A stretch of 10,489 bases of DNA from Pseudomonadota bacterium. Its GTDB lineage: Bacteria > Pseudomonadota > Alphaproteobacteria > Rhizobiales > Tepidamorphaceae. The translations under genes were made by a program, and so were the position numbers. This document shows, in pieces, positions 53 through 9,447 of the stretch. How positions within the stretch are numbered: position 1 is the stretch's first letter; each line of letters starts with the position of its first letter. The stretch covers positions 1 through 10,489 of the forward strand of contig JAEYRQ010000227.1 of NCBI GenBank assembly GCA_023435545.1. The letters run 5' to 3'. The notes beneath the pieces were generated by a model. That model searched no databases, was not told the DNA's origin, and saw only the letters and a list, made by a program, of their open reading frames with translations.

Positions 53-3000
53 TCAAGCGGCCCGTAAGAGCGTTTCAGCTTGGGCGAGGACGGTCTGCAC
101 AGCCAGATCAGATAGGTCCGGCGGATAGCCGAACCGTCTGAGGATGCGCTTGACCAAGATGCGCATGCTCGCTCTGGCGCTCTCGCGGTGGTGCCAGTCA
201 ACGGTGACGTTGCCACGGAGCTGTTCGACCAGCTCGTGCGCGATGATCCGCAGTTGGTCGCTACCCAGCACATCGACCGCCTGCTGGTGTTCGGCGAGCG
301 CGTCGTAGAAGGCGAGCTCTTCCGGGGACAGCCCGGTTTCTTCTCCCCGGGCGTGTGCGGCTTTCAGATCCCGCGCGAGGCCGATCAGTTCCTGGATCAT
401 CTCCAGGGCCGACAGAGCCCCTGCATGATAGCGCGCGACGGCGTCCTCAAGACGTTGGCTGAAGGCCTTGCTCTCCACGACGTTGGTGCGGGACCGACTC
501 TTGATCTCGCCGGCCAGAAGTTTTTTCAGAGCCTCTAGGGCGAGGTTCTTCTTCTCCATGCCGGCCACCTCGAGCAGGAACTCGTCCGACAGGATCGAGA
601 TGTCCGGCGTCTTCAGCCCGGCGGCTTGCAGGATGTCGATGATCTCCGCGGACGCGATCGACTGATCGATCAATTGCTGGACGGCGAAGGTCTTCTCGGC
701 GGCGCTCAGGCCGCCCTTGGCCGAGCTCTTGGCCAGCGCGGCGCGAATGGCCTGGAAGAACCCGACCTCGTCCCGGATCTCGCGCGCGGCGTCGCTGGCG
801 GACGCCAGAGCGAAGGCTTTGCCCAAACCCAGAACCAGATCGTGGAACTGGCGGTGAGCCTGCTTCTTCGCCTCGAGGGACGCGACCTTGGCGGCTTCCG
901 CCTCTGACCACTTGAGCACCCAGTCGATGGCGCCCGCCAGACAGGCCAGCCGTTGTGTCGGCGAGCCGGAAACCCCGGGTTCGTAGTCAAAGCCATGGAA
1001 GATGCCGCGCACCACCTCGTAGCGCTCCATCAGGACCGCGACCGCCTCTTCCTCGTTGATGCCTGTCTTGTCCCGGTCCGCCTGGGTGTACTGACCGAGC
1101 GCCGACTTCAGGTTTTGCGCGATGCCGATGTAGTCGACGACCAGACCGCCGGGCTTGTCGCGGAACACACGGTTGACGCGGGCGATGGCCTGCATCAGCC
1201 CGTGTCCGCGCATCGGCTTGTCGACGTACATGGTGTTCATGCACGGCGCGTCGAAGCCGGTCAGCCACATGTCGCGGACGATCACCAATCGGAGCGGGTC
1301 AGCCGGATCGCGGGCGCGCCTGGCAAGCAAGTCCCGCCGCGCCTTGTTGCCGATGTGCTTTTGCCAGGCGAGCGGGTCGGATGCCGAGCCGGTCATGACG
1401 ATCTTCACGGCGCCCGAGGCGTCATCATCCGAATGCCAGTCGGGCCGCAGCGCCACGATCTCGTTGTAGAGGCTCACGCAAATCCGGCGGCTCATGCAGA
1501 CGGCCATCGCCTTGCCGTCGAGAGCATCGATGCGGGCCTCGAGGTGCTTCACCAGATCGGCGGCGATCTGCTTGAGGCGCTTGCTGGAGCCGACCAGCGC
1601 CTCCACCGTCGACCACTTGGCCTTTGCTTTCTCGGCCTCGGTCAGGGTCTCATTGGCGACCAGCGCCTCGATTTCGGCATCGATCTTGGGCTTCTCGTCC
1701 TCGTCCAGTTCGATGCGGGCCAGTCGGCTCTCGTAGTAGATCGGCACGGTAGCGCCGTCCTCGACCGCGCGGCTGATGTCGTAGACGTCGATGTAGTCGC
1801 CGAACACCGCCGGCGTATTGACGTCGTCGGCCTCGATCGGCGTGCCCGTGAAGCCGATGAAGGAGGCGTTCGGCATCGCCTGCCGGACATAGTGCGCATA
1901 GCCGTAGCGACGCTCGCCAGTCTCGCGGTTCAGCTTGGAGTCGAAGCCGTACTGGCTGCGGTGCGCCTCGTCGGCCATGACGATCACGTTGCGGCGGGCC
2001 GTCAGCTCCGGAAACCGCTCCTCCCCGCGTTCAGGCGCGAATTTCTGCAGCGTGGTGAAGATGACGCCGCCCGACGTCCGGCTCAGCAAGTCCTTGAGAT
2101 CATCGCGGCTGTCCGCCTGTTCGGGCGTCTGGCGAATGAGGTCGCGGCACAGGCCGAAGGTCGAATAGAGCTGATCGTCAAGGTCGTTTCGGTCGGTCAG
2201 CACGACGATCGTCGGGTTCTCGAGCGCTGGCTCCTTCACGACGAGGCCGGCGAAGAAGGCCATTAGCAGGCTCTTGCCGGAGCCTTGGGTGTGCCAGATC
2301 ACCCCAATCTTCCGGTCGCCGTCGGAACGGGTAGCGGCGACGGCCTCGGCCAGCGCTTTGCGCGCGCCGTGGAACTGGTGATAGGCTCCGATGATCTTGA
2401 ACGGGCCGCGGTCGCCGTCGCCGAAGACTGTGAAATCGCGGATGAGCGCCAGGAAGTGCTCGCGTTCAAAGACTCCGCGCAGCAGGGTTTCGAGCTCGGG
2501 TGAGCCCTTGTGCGTGAAGTCGTCGTCCGAGCCGGTGATGGTGCGCCACGGCATGAAGCGCTCGAAGTCGGCCGTGAGCGAACCTATCCGCGCCTCGACG
2601 CCGTCAGACGCCACCAGCACCGCATTCGTGCGGAACAGGCTCGGGACCTGCGCCTGGTAGGTCTGCAGCTGGTTGAAGGCGTCGGTCGTCGTGGCGTTCT
2701 CGGCAGCGGCGTTCTTCAGCTCCAGCACCGCCAGGGGCAGGCCGTTGACGAACAGGACCAGGTCCGGCCGCCGGTTCCATGAGCCTTCGACCACAGTGAA
2801 CTGATTGACCGCCAACCAGTCGTTGGCTTCCGGGGCGGCGAAATCGATAAGCCAGACCTTCTCCGAGACGATCCGGCCGTCGGCCGCCCGATGCTGCACC
2901 CCCACCCCATCGGTCAGCAGCCGGTGGATTCGGCGGTTCTCCTCGACCAGCGACCCCGTGGCGCTGGTCAGCAGCTGGCGGATCGCCTCGCTGCGCGCGA

Positions 3001-3193
3001 CCTCGGGGACATCGGGATTCAGTTTGGCGAGCGCGGTCTCGAGCCGGGGCAGCAGGATGACGTCGGAGAAGGCCTGACGCTGCGGCGCGGGACCGTCCGG
3101 GGCGATGCTGGTGCCATGCAGGTAGAGCCAGCCGAGGTCCTTGAGGATTTCGATGCCGGCCTCTTCGACGATGTCTTCCGAGAAACCCTTCAC
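53..3193 (-). CDS. hsdR: Type I restriction enzyme endonuclease/translocase subunit R (HsdR)
   Basis: HsdR is the motor and nuclease subunit of a type I restriction enzyme. With two HsdM and one HsdS it translocates unmethylated DNA using ATP and cuts at a distance. The 1046 residues match the usual family length of about 1000-1100. An N-terminal PD-(D/E)xK nuclease is visible: D144 in RRPDLVL, E158-L-K160, and the QxxxY motif at Q175-Y179. A superfamily 2 helicase follows: Walker A GSGKS 304-308, DEAH 408-411, FTGTP 448-452, TGFDAP 645-650 and a motif VI-like QAIARVNR 668-675. Residues from about 750 onward look like the helical C-terminal part that docks on the methylase. The start is GTG, overlapping the mcrC stop as GTGA and preceded by GGGGGGAG three bases upstream. 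It is the last gene of the operon. No damage is seen and all key residues are present. Confidence 0.97.
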
Positions 3194-7849: not shown

Positions 7850-9447
7850 GCGCTGATGGCTCCCAGCGCCGCTTCGATCCTCTCCTCCAGCGCGCGCCCC
7901 TCGGCGAACTGCTCCGCCAGTTTCGCCCGCAGCGCCCCGAACCGCTCTCCGAACGGCACGCCGTCGTCCTCTTCGTCCGCTGCCCCGACATACCGCCCCG
8001 GCGTCAGCACATGGCCGTGGCCGCGCACCTCCTCCAGCGGGGCCGAGCGGCAGAACCCCGGCTCGTCCGCATAGACCTCCAGTCCCTGCACGTCGTTGGT
8101 CTCCGGCCGATTGCGCCAGCGGTGATAGGCGCCGGCGATCTTCGCGATGTCCTCGGCCGAGAACTCGCGCCGGGTGCGGTCGACCATGTGGCCCAGCTTG
8201 CGGGCGTCAATGAACAGGATTTCGCCGCGCCGGTCGCGATGGCCGTTGGCGCTCTTGTCGCGGGCCAGGAACCACAGGCAGGCGGGGATCTGGGTCGAGT
8301 AGAACAGCTGGCCCGGCAGGGCGACCATGCAGTCGACCACGTCGCCCTCGATCATCGCCTTGCGGATCTCGCCCTCGCCCGACTGCTGCGAGGACATGGA
8401 GCCGTTGGCCAGCACCACGCCGGCCGTGCCGCGCGGGGCCAGGTGGTGCAGGATGTGCTGCAGCCAGGCGAAGTTGGCGTTGCCCTTGGGCGGTGTCCCG
8501 TAAACCCAGCGCGCGTCGCCTTCGAGGCTGGGCTGCCACCAGTCCGAGATGTTGAAGGGCGGGTTGGCCATCGCATAGTCGAACTTCAGCGTCGGGAAGG
8601 CGTCGCGCAGGAACGAGCCCTCGTTGTTCCAGGCGATGTCCGCATCGATGCCGCGCACGGCCAGGTTCATCTTGCAGAGACGCCAGGTGGTGTGGTTGCG
8701 CTCCTGGCCATAGATGGCGATGTCGCTGCGCCGGCCCTGGTGGTCCTCCACGAACCGCTCGGACTGCACGAACATGCCGCCCGAGCCGCAGGCGGGGTCG
8801 TAGACGCGGCCCTTGGTCGGCTCCAGCACCTCGACGATGGTGCGCACCACGGACCGGGGCGTGAAGAACTCGCCGCCGCGTTTGCCCTCCGCGCCGGCGA
8901 ACTGCGAGATGAAGTACTCGTACGCCCGGCCGAGCAGGTCCTGGGCGTCGCCGTTGCGGGCCTTCATGTCGACGTTGGAGAACAGGTCGACCAGCTCGCC
9001 CAGCATGGTCTTGTCCAGCTGGGGCCGGCTGTAGATCTTGGGCAGGACGTCCTTCAGGACGGTGATGTTGGCCTTCTCGATCGCCTCCATGGCGTTGTCG
9101 ATCAGCCCGCCGATGTCGCCCTTCTTCTCGCGCCCGGTGGTGACGTCGGTGAAGGTGATCTCGGGCCGCTTGGCGTTGGCCTGCAGATTGCTCCAGCGCG
9201 CCTCGGGCGGCACCCAGAAGACATGGGCGGCGAGGTATTCCTCGGGGTCCTCCGGGTCGGCGTAGGGCTCGGCCTTCAGCTTCTCGTACTGCGCCTCGAA
9301 CGCTTCGGAGATGTACTTAAGGAAGATCAGCCCGAGCGCGACGTGCTTGTACTCTGACGGCTCCAGGTTTCCCCGTAGCTTGTCGGCCGCTTTGAACAGC
9401 TCGGCCTCAAAGCCGAGGTCACCGCCGTTAGACCGTTCAACTGCCAT
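7846..9447 (-). CDS. hsdM: Type I DNA N6-adenine methyltransferase subunit (HsdM)
   Basis: HsdM transfers a methyl group from S-adenosylmethionine to adenine in the target chosen by HsdS, protecting host DNA; it is also a core part of the restricting complex. The 533 residues start with an HsdM N-terminal helical domain (about 8-150, including [19 protein letters not shown]). The methylase core follows: GEFFTPRSV near 192-200, the SAM-binding DPACGSGG 217-224, YGQE 246-249 and the catalytic NPPF 295-298. The C-terminal LTPGRYVG (481-488) is typical of the family. The frame is open to a TTG at 9450, but the ATG at 9447 is favoured because AGGGGGGAA lies at a normal distance (six bases from the G run) from it and too close to the TTG. 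It is the first gene of the operon and overlaps hsdS by four bases. Subunit sizes resemble the type IC class, but class is not proven. Confidence 0.97.

Follow-up and report, generated by a model that had tools for sequence, protein, structure and literature searches.

A probable exchange site between hsdS and hsdR

A 10,489-nucleotide stretch of DNA from a Pseudomonadota bacterium (contig JAEYRQ010000227.1, positions 1 to 10,489; here called the window) carries a type I restriction-modification operon in which an McrBC pair lies between hsdS and hsdR, giving the minus-strand order hsdM-hsdS-mcrB-mcrC-hsdR with five intact genes. A first-pass annotation had stated that both mcr genes are complete and share a strand with the hsdS and hsdR genes around them, and this was confirmed by gene identities, motifs, and the open reading frame (ORF) map. 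We consider it fairly probable that the hsdS-hsdR junction is an exchangeable restriction cassette site, filled here by McrBC, and that the type I enzyme and McrBC are independent enzymes made together.

The evidence comes from operons with closely related HsdR. A search of Caulobacteraceae (E ≤ 1e-200) was positive in 11 of 323 genomes and gave nine new regions besides loci L069 and L109. The close clade was defined by an HsdR at least 78% identical to that of the window; with L161 dropped for its incomplete HsdR, seven operons could be assessed, including the window. The slot between hsdS and hsdR held McrBC in two (window and L069), a protein with GmrSD_N and GmrSD_C domains in two (L156 and L158), and a protein with GmrSD_N only in two (L155 and L157), and it was empty in one (L159; HsdR 78%). 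An McrBC or GmrSD-family gene was thus present in six of the seven slots (five of six without the window). The closest operon by HsdR, L155 of genome G054 (HsdR 97%, HsdM 94%, and ZorA 96% identical to the window), has no McrBC in its slot, which encodes a 710-amino-acid protein with GmrSD_N and SLFN_AlbA_2 domains (HEC-05 by PADLOC, whose slot calls cover L155, L156, and L157 but not L158). The L156 slot (HsdR 92%) carries DUF6615 and a GmrSD_N/GmrSD_C protein (PADLOC Orf5/HEC-06), that of L157 (HsdR 90%) a GmrSD_N protein in which GmrSD_C was not recognized (PADLOC HEC-05), and that of L158 (HsdR 79%) a GmrSD_N/GmrSD_C protein and a small gene described below. These GmrSD-type passengers are diverse: L156 and L158 share 68% identity, and L155 and L157 share 25%.

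Between the window and L155, DNA homology was undetected over 7352-7867, 6635-7120, and 3188-6565 (window plus-strand coordinates) and returned at the seventh base of hsdR. These intervals correspond to the two target recognition domain (TRD) segments of hsdS and to the slot, placed among the other features of the window as follows.

7846..9447, minus strand: hsdM, type I adenine methyltransferase, 533 amino acids (Pfam N6_Mtase and HsdM_N; motifs DPACGSGG and NPPF)
6533..7849, minus strand: hsdS, specificity subunit with two recognition domains (Pfam Methylase_S)
7352..7867, minus strand: TRD1 segment and hsdM junction, without detected DNA homology to L155 (blastn mosaic)
6635..7120, minus strand: TRD2 segment of hsdS; no DNA homology to L155 detected (blastn mosaic)
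6566..6634, minus strand: conserved 3' helix of hsdS, the left arm of the cassette slot (DNA 94% identical to L155; protein flanks)
3188..6565, minus strand: cassette slot (hsdS end, mcrB, mcrC, and first hsdR bases), no homology detected to L155
4323..6536, minus strand: mcrB, 737 amino acids (helical 1-205, tandem winged helices about 235-410, AAA+ GTPase about 440-737)
5307..5834, minus strand: tandem winged-helix part of McrB, residues 235-410
3190..4326, minus strand: mcrC, PD-(D/E)xK nuclease subunit, 378 amino acids, GTG start at 4326 (Pfam PF10117; conserved residues)
53..3193, minus strand: hsdR, type I restriction/translocation subunit (Pfam HSDR_N, SWI2_SNF2, and T1RH-like_C)
9448..9608, no strand: divergent intergenic hsdM-zorA region, presumed control region (ORF map)
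9609..10489, plus strand: zorA (partial), Zorya type I neighbor outside the operon (PADLOC ZorA1, E = 3e-61)

The TRD segments of the window hsdS had no DNA homology to L155, L156, L158, L159, or L069, while the central and 3' helices were conserved. Comparison at the sequence level shows a shared backbone (hsdM, hsdR, and the conserved hsdS parts, with a divergent Zorya in three loci) and three segments, TRD1, TRD2, and the slot, that differ between close relatives. The window, L155 (zorA-zorD, 2-7329), and L069 carry Zorya type I genes divergent from hsdM; blastp found none in the regions obtained for L156, L158, and L159. Among the fetched loci, the nearest HsdS to that of the window is in a distant operon, L160 (9775-11052), with 47% identity over nearly the whole length; the HsdR of L160 is only 50% identical to that of the window, and its slot holds a Fic passenger. 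This match speaks for shuffling of hsdS between distant operons, apparently independent of the slot.

In the HsdR tree, the branches outward from the window were L155 (support 100/100), L156, L157, and then L069 (weak, 83/77). Given this order and the differing passengers, the slot content appears to have changed repeatedly. The simplest reading, short of proof, is repeated replacement, with McrBC captured separately in the window and L069 lineages.

A second nested copy

The exact five-gene nesting was found in one further genome, G187 of the Caulobacteraceae (locus L069). Over aligned residues, its proteins are 85% (HsdM), 79% (HsdR), 64% (McrB), and 67% (McrC) identical to those of the window. 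HsdS is 34% identical, with the helices conserved and both recognition domains different, and McrBC is kept. The first-pass annotation had raised the conservation of the five-gene order across lineages: the order is rare in the genomes searched, with this one other case, but it is not confined to near-identical strains (HsdR 21% and McrB 36% different in L069). The same annotation had suggested that McrBC may be tuned to the mark of this particular HsdM. Such tuning is unlikely, because L069 retains McrBC although the recognition domains of its HsdS are unlike those of the window, and it is further disfavored by the occurrence of the McrBC family away from hsd genes. A general tolerance of McrBC for N6-methyladenine is compatible with these data.

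In the McrB tree, the window and L069 fell in different groups. A single origin of the nested order was tentatively set aside on the McrB and HsdR trees, in a comparison that covered the neighborhoods of a minority of McrB homologues and in which support for placing the non-nested L068 with the window McrB group was only 91/83. At L069, zorA, zorB, zorC, and the start of zorD are divergent from hsdM (14672-19998), with ZorA 72% identical to that of the window, and an extra 141-amino-acid gene precedes mcrB (11115-11540). A relative of this gene (56% identical) stands before the GmrSD gene in the L158 slot (10053-10475), and the gene shared by the two loci may be a slot helper.

Layout of the window operon

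With the starts of hsdM and mcrC revised to ATG 9447 and GTG 4326, respectively, a 4-nucleotide start/stop overlap was found at all four junctions of the operon; overlaps were also present at all five junctions of L069, extra gene included. Because of these overlaps, the five genes are probably read as a single transcript. No sigma-70-like promoter was found, the intergenic region 9448..9608 included (0.7 expected by chance), terminator-like sites in the window were at chance level only, and Rfam gave no match at gathering scores. The operon encodes the parts of a type I enzyme: HsdM, HsdS with recognition domains, and HsdR with a nuclease and an SF2 motor. HsdR scored 601.7 bits against a cutoff of 284.55 for TIGR00348, and HsdM scored 154 against 242.75 for TIGR00497, i.e., below the cutoff. 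Scores for the MADS equivalogs were not reached (MAD2, 50.8 versus 720; MAD5, 21.9 versus 400). Having a same-strand passenger between hsdS and hsdR, the operon belongs to the embedded-defense kind represented by TgvAB, RloF, and DarTG2. A defect in one of the operon genes was considered and set aside, since the enzyme motifs are intact, as was a recent foreign base composition of mcrBC, since its GC content (0.66) is close to that of hsdM (0.67) and hsdR (0.65).

Frequency of the nested order

We searched for McrB (E ≤ 1e-50) in Caulobacteraceae, the family of the Brevundimonas genome G001 (locus L016), and in its class, with 8 of 348 and 9 of 385 genomes positive, respectively. As G001 was counted in both searches, these are 16 genomes; regions were obtained from 15 of them and from G005, again 16. 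One region is nested (L069), in another mcrBC immediately precedes hsdM (L070), and 14 have no hsd cluster by our profiles, including L079 with a weak HsdM match; L016 also has none by profiles. The HsdR profile missed the EcoEI-type HsdR of L032, L035, and L036, which Pfam found, so that "no hsd cluster" here refers to these profiles alone. Searches with McrC in two other families were positive in 2 of 298 and 3 of 249 genomes (5 of 547), and nesting was not seen in the five regions from those families, of which L137 has a divergent hsd cluster nearby. It was likewise not seen in 12 plasmid records out of 30 bearing McrC; in two (L085 and L087), McrBC follows hsd genes.

A genome-contig scan with an McrB alignment that included two generic AAA peptides gave no nested copy among the 41 matches listed, several of them on short contigs. 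Among these 41, McrBC adjoins an hsd cluster but lies outside it in six (L001, L002, L032, L035, L036, and L038); L002 has an hsdR fragment at the contig start. In the Bacteroidota loci L032, L035, L036, and L038, a more distant McrBC follows a complete hsd cluster rather than sitting inside it. There was no match among viral contigs scanned with McrC, a search limited to close relatives, or in a plasmid search with the partial ZorA. The nested copies counted here are a minimum, since McrB proteins 88 to 93% identical to that of the window exist (P0006-P0008) with neighbors outside the survey.

McrBC of this family often occurs apart from hsd genes (no hsd cluster by profiles in 14 of the 16 fetched regions; examples include L138, L140, and L068). 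L042 (5598-15246) and L068 (8560-13837) have McrBC outside hsd operons, with a DNA methyltransferase and a GIY-YIG nuclease in the vicinity, the methyltransferase at L068 being of the C5 type. No methyltransferase was seen by motif near McrBC in L138 and L140, where the domain scan covered part of the neighbors.

Slot contents in distant operons

The distant set comprised 27 loci with HsdR below 78% identity: 16 from a class search, eight reached otherwise, and three from Caulobacteraceae. The class search (E ≤ 1e-150) was positive in 19 of 385 genomes, and 16 of the 19 regions requested show both hsdS and hsdR. At least one same-strand ORF of 100 amino acids or more lies in the hsdS-hsdR gap in 14 of the 16, with none in L116 and L124; the slots of L118 (hsdS 8.3 kb off) and L112 (a single 118-amino-acid ORF) are doubtful. 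By Pfam, the slots hold Abi_C (L109, L110), DUF1828/1829 with DUF6978 (L108), M78 peptidase (L114), DUF3800 (L115), FRG with a T1RH-like_C piece (L117), AAA_21 (L118), AAA_21 with DUF4276 (L122), Fic (L119, L120), PIN (L121), or no family (L113, L123). The eight loci reached otherwise were L001, L070, and L085, found via McrB or McrC, and L125 to L129, five selected from 160 HsdR-bearing plasmid records. Their slots hold SIR2 (L001, L126), DUF6119 (L070), BstXI (L085, by annotation, and L128), FRG (L125), a 134-amino-acid ORF with no Pfam match (L127), and a piece of hsdR in a degraded operon (L129). The distant Caulobacteraceae slots hold Fic (L160) and Abi_C (L162 and L163, the latter just under the cutoff). 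No McrBC or GmrSD_N was recognized in the slots of the 27 loci among the ORFs scanned, a set that leaves aside, among others, L112, L129, two ORFs in L109, and parts of L118 and L119.

This variety is what would be expected if the slot were a neutral landing place, where insertion harms little and gives expression, with McrBC functionally unconnected to the type I enzyme. SIR2, Fic, FRG, Abi_C, PIN, AAA_21 with DUF4276, BstXI, and DUF1828/1829 all occur in slots of the wider HsdR family, and McrBC itself is frequent in regions without an hsd cluster. However, the contrast between six of seven close-clade slots with McrBC or GmrSD-family genes and none recognized in the 27 distant loci argues otherwise, albeit weakened by shared ancestry within the clade, and we regard a neutral slot as unlikely.

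The FRG passengers of L117 (9940-11223) and L125 (10655-11920) end in an HsdR C-terminal piece, T1RH-like_C (above the cutoff in L117 and below it in L125), and might thereby dock on the type I methyltransferase core. Such a dock would suit a guarded backup, in which McrBC is silenced by the type I complex and freed when a phage inhibits HsdR. PrrC, embedded in a type IC operon, is freed on infection (PMC3874165, PMC12707154), and other slot passengers resemble toxic effectors. However, no T1RH-like_C piece was found in McrB or McrC of the window (Pfam, E ≤ 0.001), and McrBC family members exist without nearby hsd genes. Protection by the analogous TgvAB also persists without type I genes, although for several phages it is then 10- to 100-fold weaker, a loss that the authors suggest to be a stoichiometry effect (PMC11411939). 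Guarding is improbable on this evidence.

McrB and McrC of the window

The two mcr products belong to the McrBC family, McrB as an AAA+ GTPase with the NxxD motif and McrC as a PD-(D/E)xK nuclease. Scores for the E. coli-type, 5-methylcytosine-specific McrBC equivalogs of NCBIfam were not reached (McrC, 325.2 versus 338; McrB, 225 versus 637). A Foldseek search with McrB residues 1-410 as one piece matched no PDB entry at E ≤ 0.001; for residues 235-410, winged helices were the best structural neighbors, and the winged-helix pair resembles the recognition domains of FokI and BpuJI. Between the window and L069, McrB identity is 67% over residues 1-205, 50% over 206-410, and 75% over 441-737, the winged-helix half being the least alike. 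Across 19 McrB homologues, conservation of this half (61%) comes close to that of the AAA part (64%). An Azospirillum plasmid (L043, 11917-13251) encodes a 444-amino-acid protein that is related to the N-terminal region of McrB and lacks the AAA part.

The likeness to FokI and BpuJI, the McrBC of L042 and L068 near a methyltransferase, and the described McrBC-type enzyme LlaJI (PMC12707154) would fit an McrBC that cuts a specific unmodified sequence and is restrained by a methyltransferase of the operon or host, but since the window and L069 both keep McrBC despite different HsdS recognition domains, and L138 and L140 show no methyltransferase by motif, a cognate methyltransferase is not a constant neighbor, and we hold this to be very improbable.

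Weighing the cassette-site reading

Several results weigh against an exchangeable site for modification-dependent enzymes. The seven related operons are few and not independent, and the contig of L157 ends before hsdS, leaving only the gene directly before hsdR visible. Two of the six clade passengers (L155 and L157) have no recognized GmrSD nuclease domain, which makes their class less sure. Outside the window, the five-gene order turned up only in L069, and elsewhere a neighboring McrBC is mostly outside the hsd cluster. Since the distant slots are varied or empty, with no recognized McrBC or GmrSD_N, the position is not reserved for cutters of modified DNA in general. As to McrB itself, no Pfam family was found at E ≤ 1 within residues 1-410, and its predicted winged helices resemble recognition domains of sequence-specific enzymes. 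Because the N terminus matches no Pfam family, cutting of modified DNA by this McrBC is putative and follows from family membership.

The proposal of the first-pass annotation that the two enzymes may act as one two-sided system stands in part: McrBC or GmrSD-family genes in six of seven clade slots fit selection for a modified-DNA cutter, but two of these passengers have no recognized GmrSD nuclease domain. Under the cassette-site reading, HsdMSR would methylate its own sites and cut DNA without that mark, and McrBC, made from the same message via the start/stop overlaps, would cut DNA whose base modifications block type I recognition. The two would be co-expressed and most likely independent and complementary. 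The slot may be exchanged through homologous recombination between hsdR and the conserved 3' helix of hsdS, and the clade would keep swapping one modification-dependent enzyme for another as phage modifications and inhibitors change.

More tentatively, and with somewhat less than even confidence, we propose that the operon has three exchangeable cassettes, with TRD1 and TRD2 setting the unmodified site and the slot setting the modified target. McrBC and GmrSD would then be traded about as freely as TRDs, and one mobile operon could evolve both specificities by the same recombination route. Both this proposal and the broader cassette-site reading are weakened by the two clade passengers without a recognized GmrSD nuclease domain and by the additional McrBC loci that flank hsd clusters.

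If the slot is kept for modification-dependent restriction, the joint travel of hsd loci and type IV enzymes would become easier to understand, and one operon could guard against both unmodified and modified virus DNA. Two-sided restriction is a testable idea, since the operons of the window and G054 differ in little besides the recognition domains and the passenger, and the gene between hsdS and hsdR is a simple place to search for further passengers.

Comparison with known systems

In E. coli K-12, the enzyme classes are those of the window, and mcrBC lies beside hsdRMS and not inside it. McrBC of the K-12 branch is reported to be frequently associated with type I systems, usually in one direction (PMC11090510), and K-12 McrB has a base-flipping N terminus (PMC12707154). 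In the literature within reach, which mostly did not extend to subscription journals, we found no report that McrBC lies between hsdS and hsdR or is exchanged there for GmrSD-type genes on a near-identical backbone. The principle of an embedded passenger at this site is already published (TgvAB, RloF, DarTG2, and PrrC), as is the association of McrBC with type I systems.

Like the window, EcoprrI has a passenger embedded in a type I operon (PMC3874165, PMC12707154), but its passenger PrrC, an anticodon nuclease that is held by the type I enzyme, is not an McrBC. DarTG2 lies between hsdS and hsdR in an RptR-controlled type I island of E. coli E2348/69, a site its authors term a "potential recombination hotspot"; it differs in being a toxin-antitoxin passenger, and the repressor RptR lies upstream there (PMC12255303). 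RloF, among the R-linked ORFs of Campylobacter, is a DUF262 gene between hsdS and hsdR (PMC4619093) and again not McrBC. BREX with embedded GmrSD (BrxU) is a further parallel, and the TgvAB paper equates HEC-05, the PADLOC call for the L155 and L157 slots, with BrxU (PMC11411939). TgvAB of Vibrio cholerae VPI-2, like the McrBC of the window, is a two-gene system, of the type IV restriction class, embedded in a five-gene type I operon, with a predicted Zorya listed just before the type I genes in the same island (PMC11411939). It differs in being of the DUF262/DUF1524 (GmrSD) family, and within its operon it has been found by experiment to act on phages with hypermodified cytosine without HsdR nuclease activity (PMC11411939).

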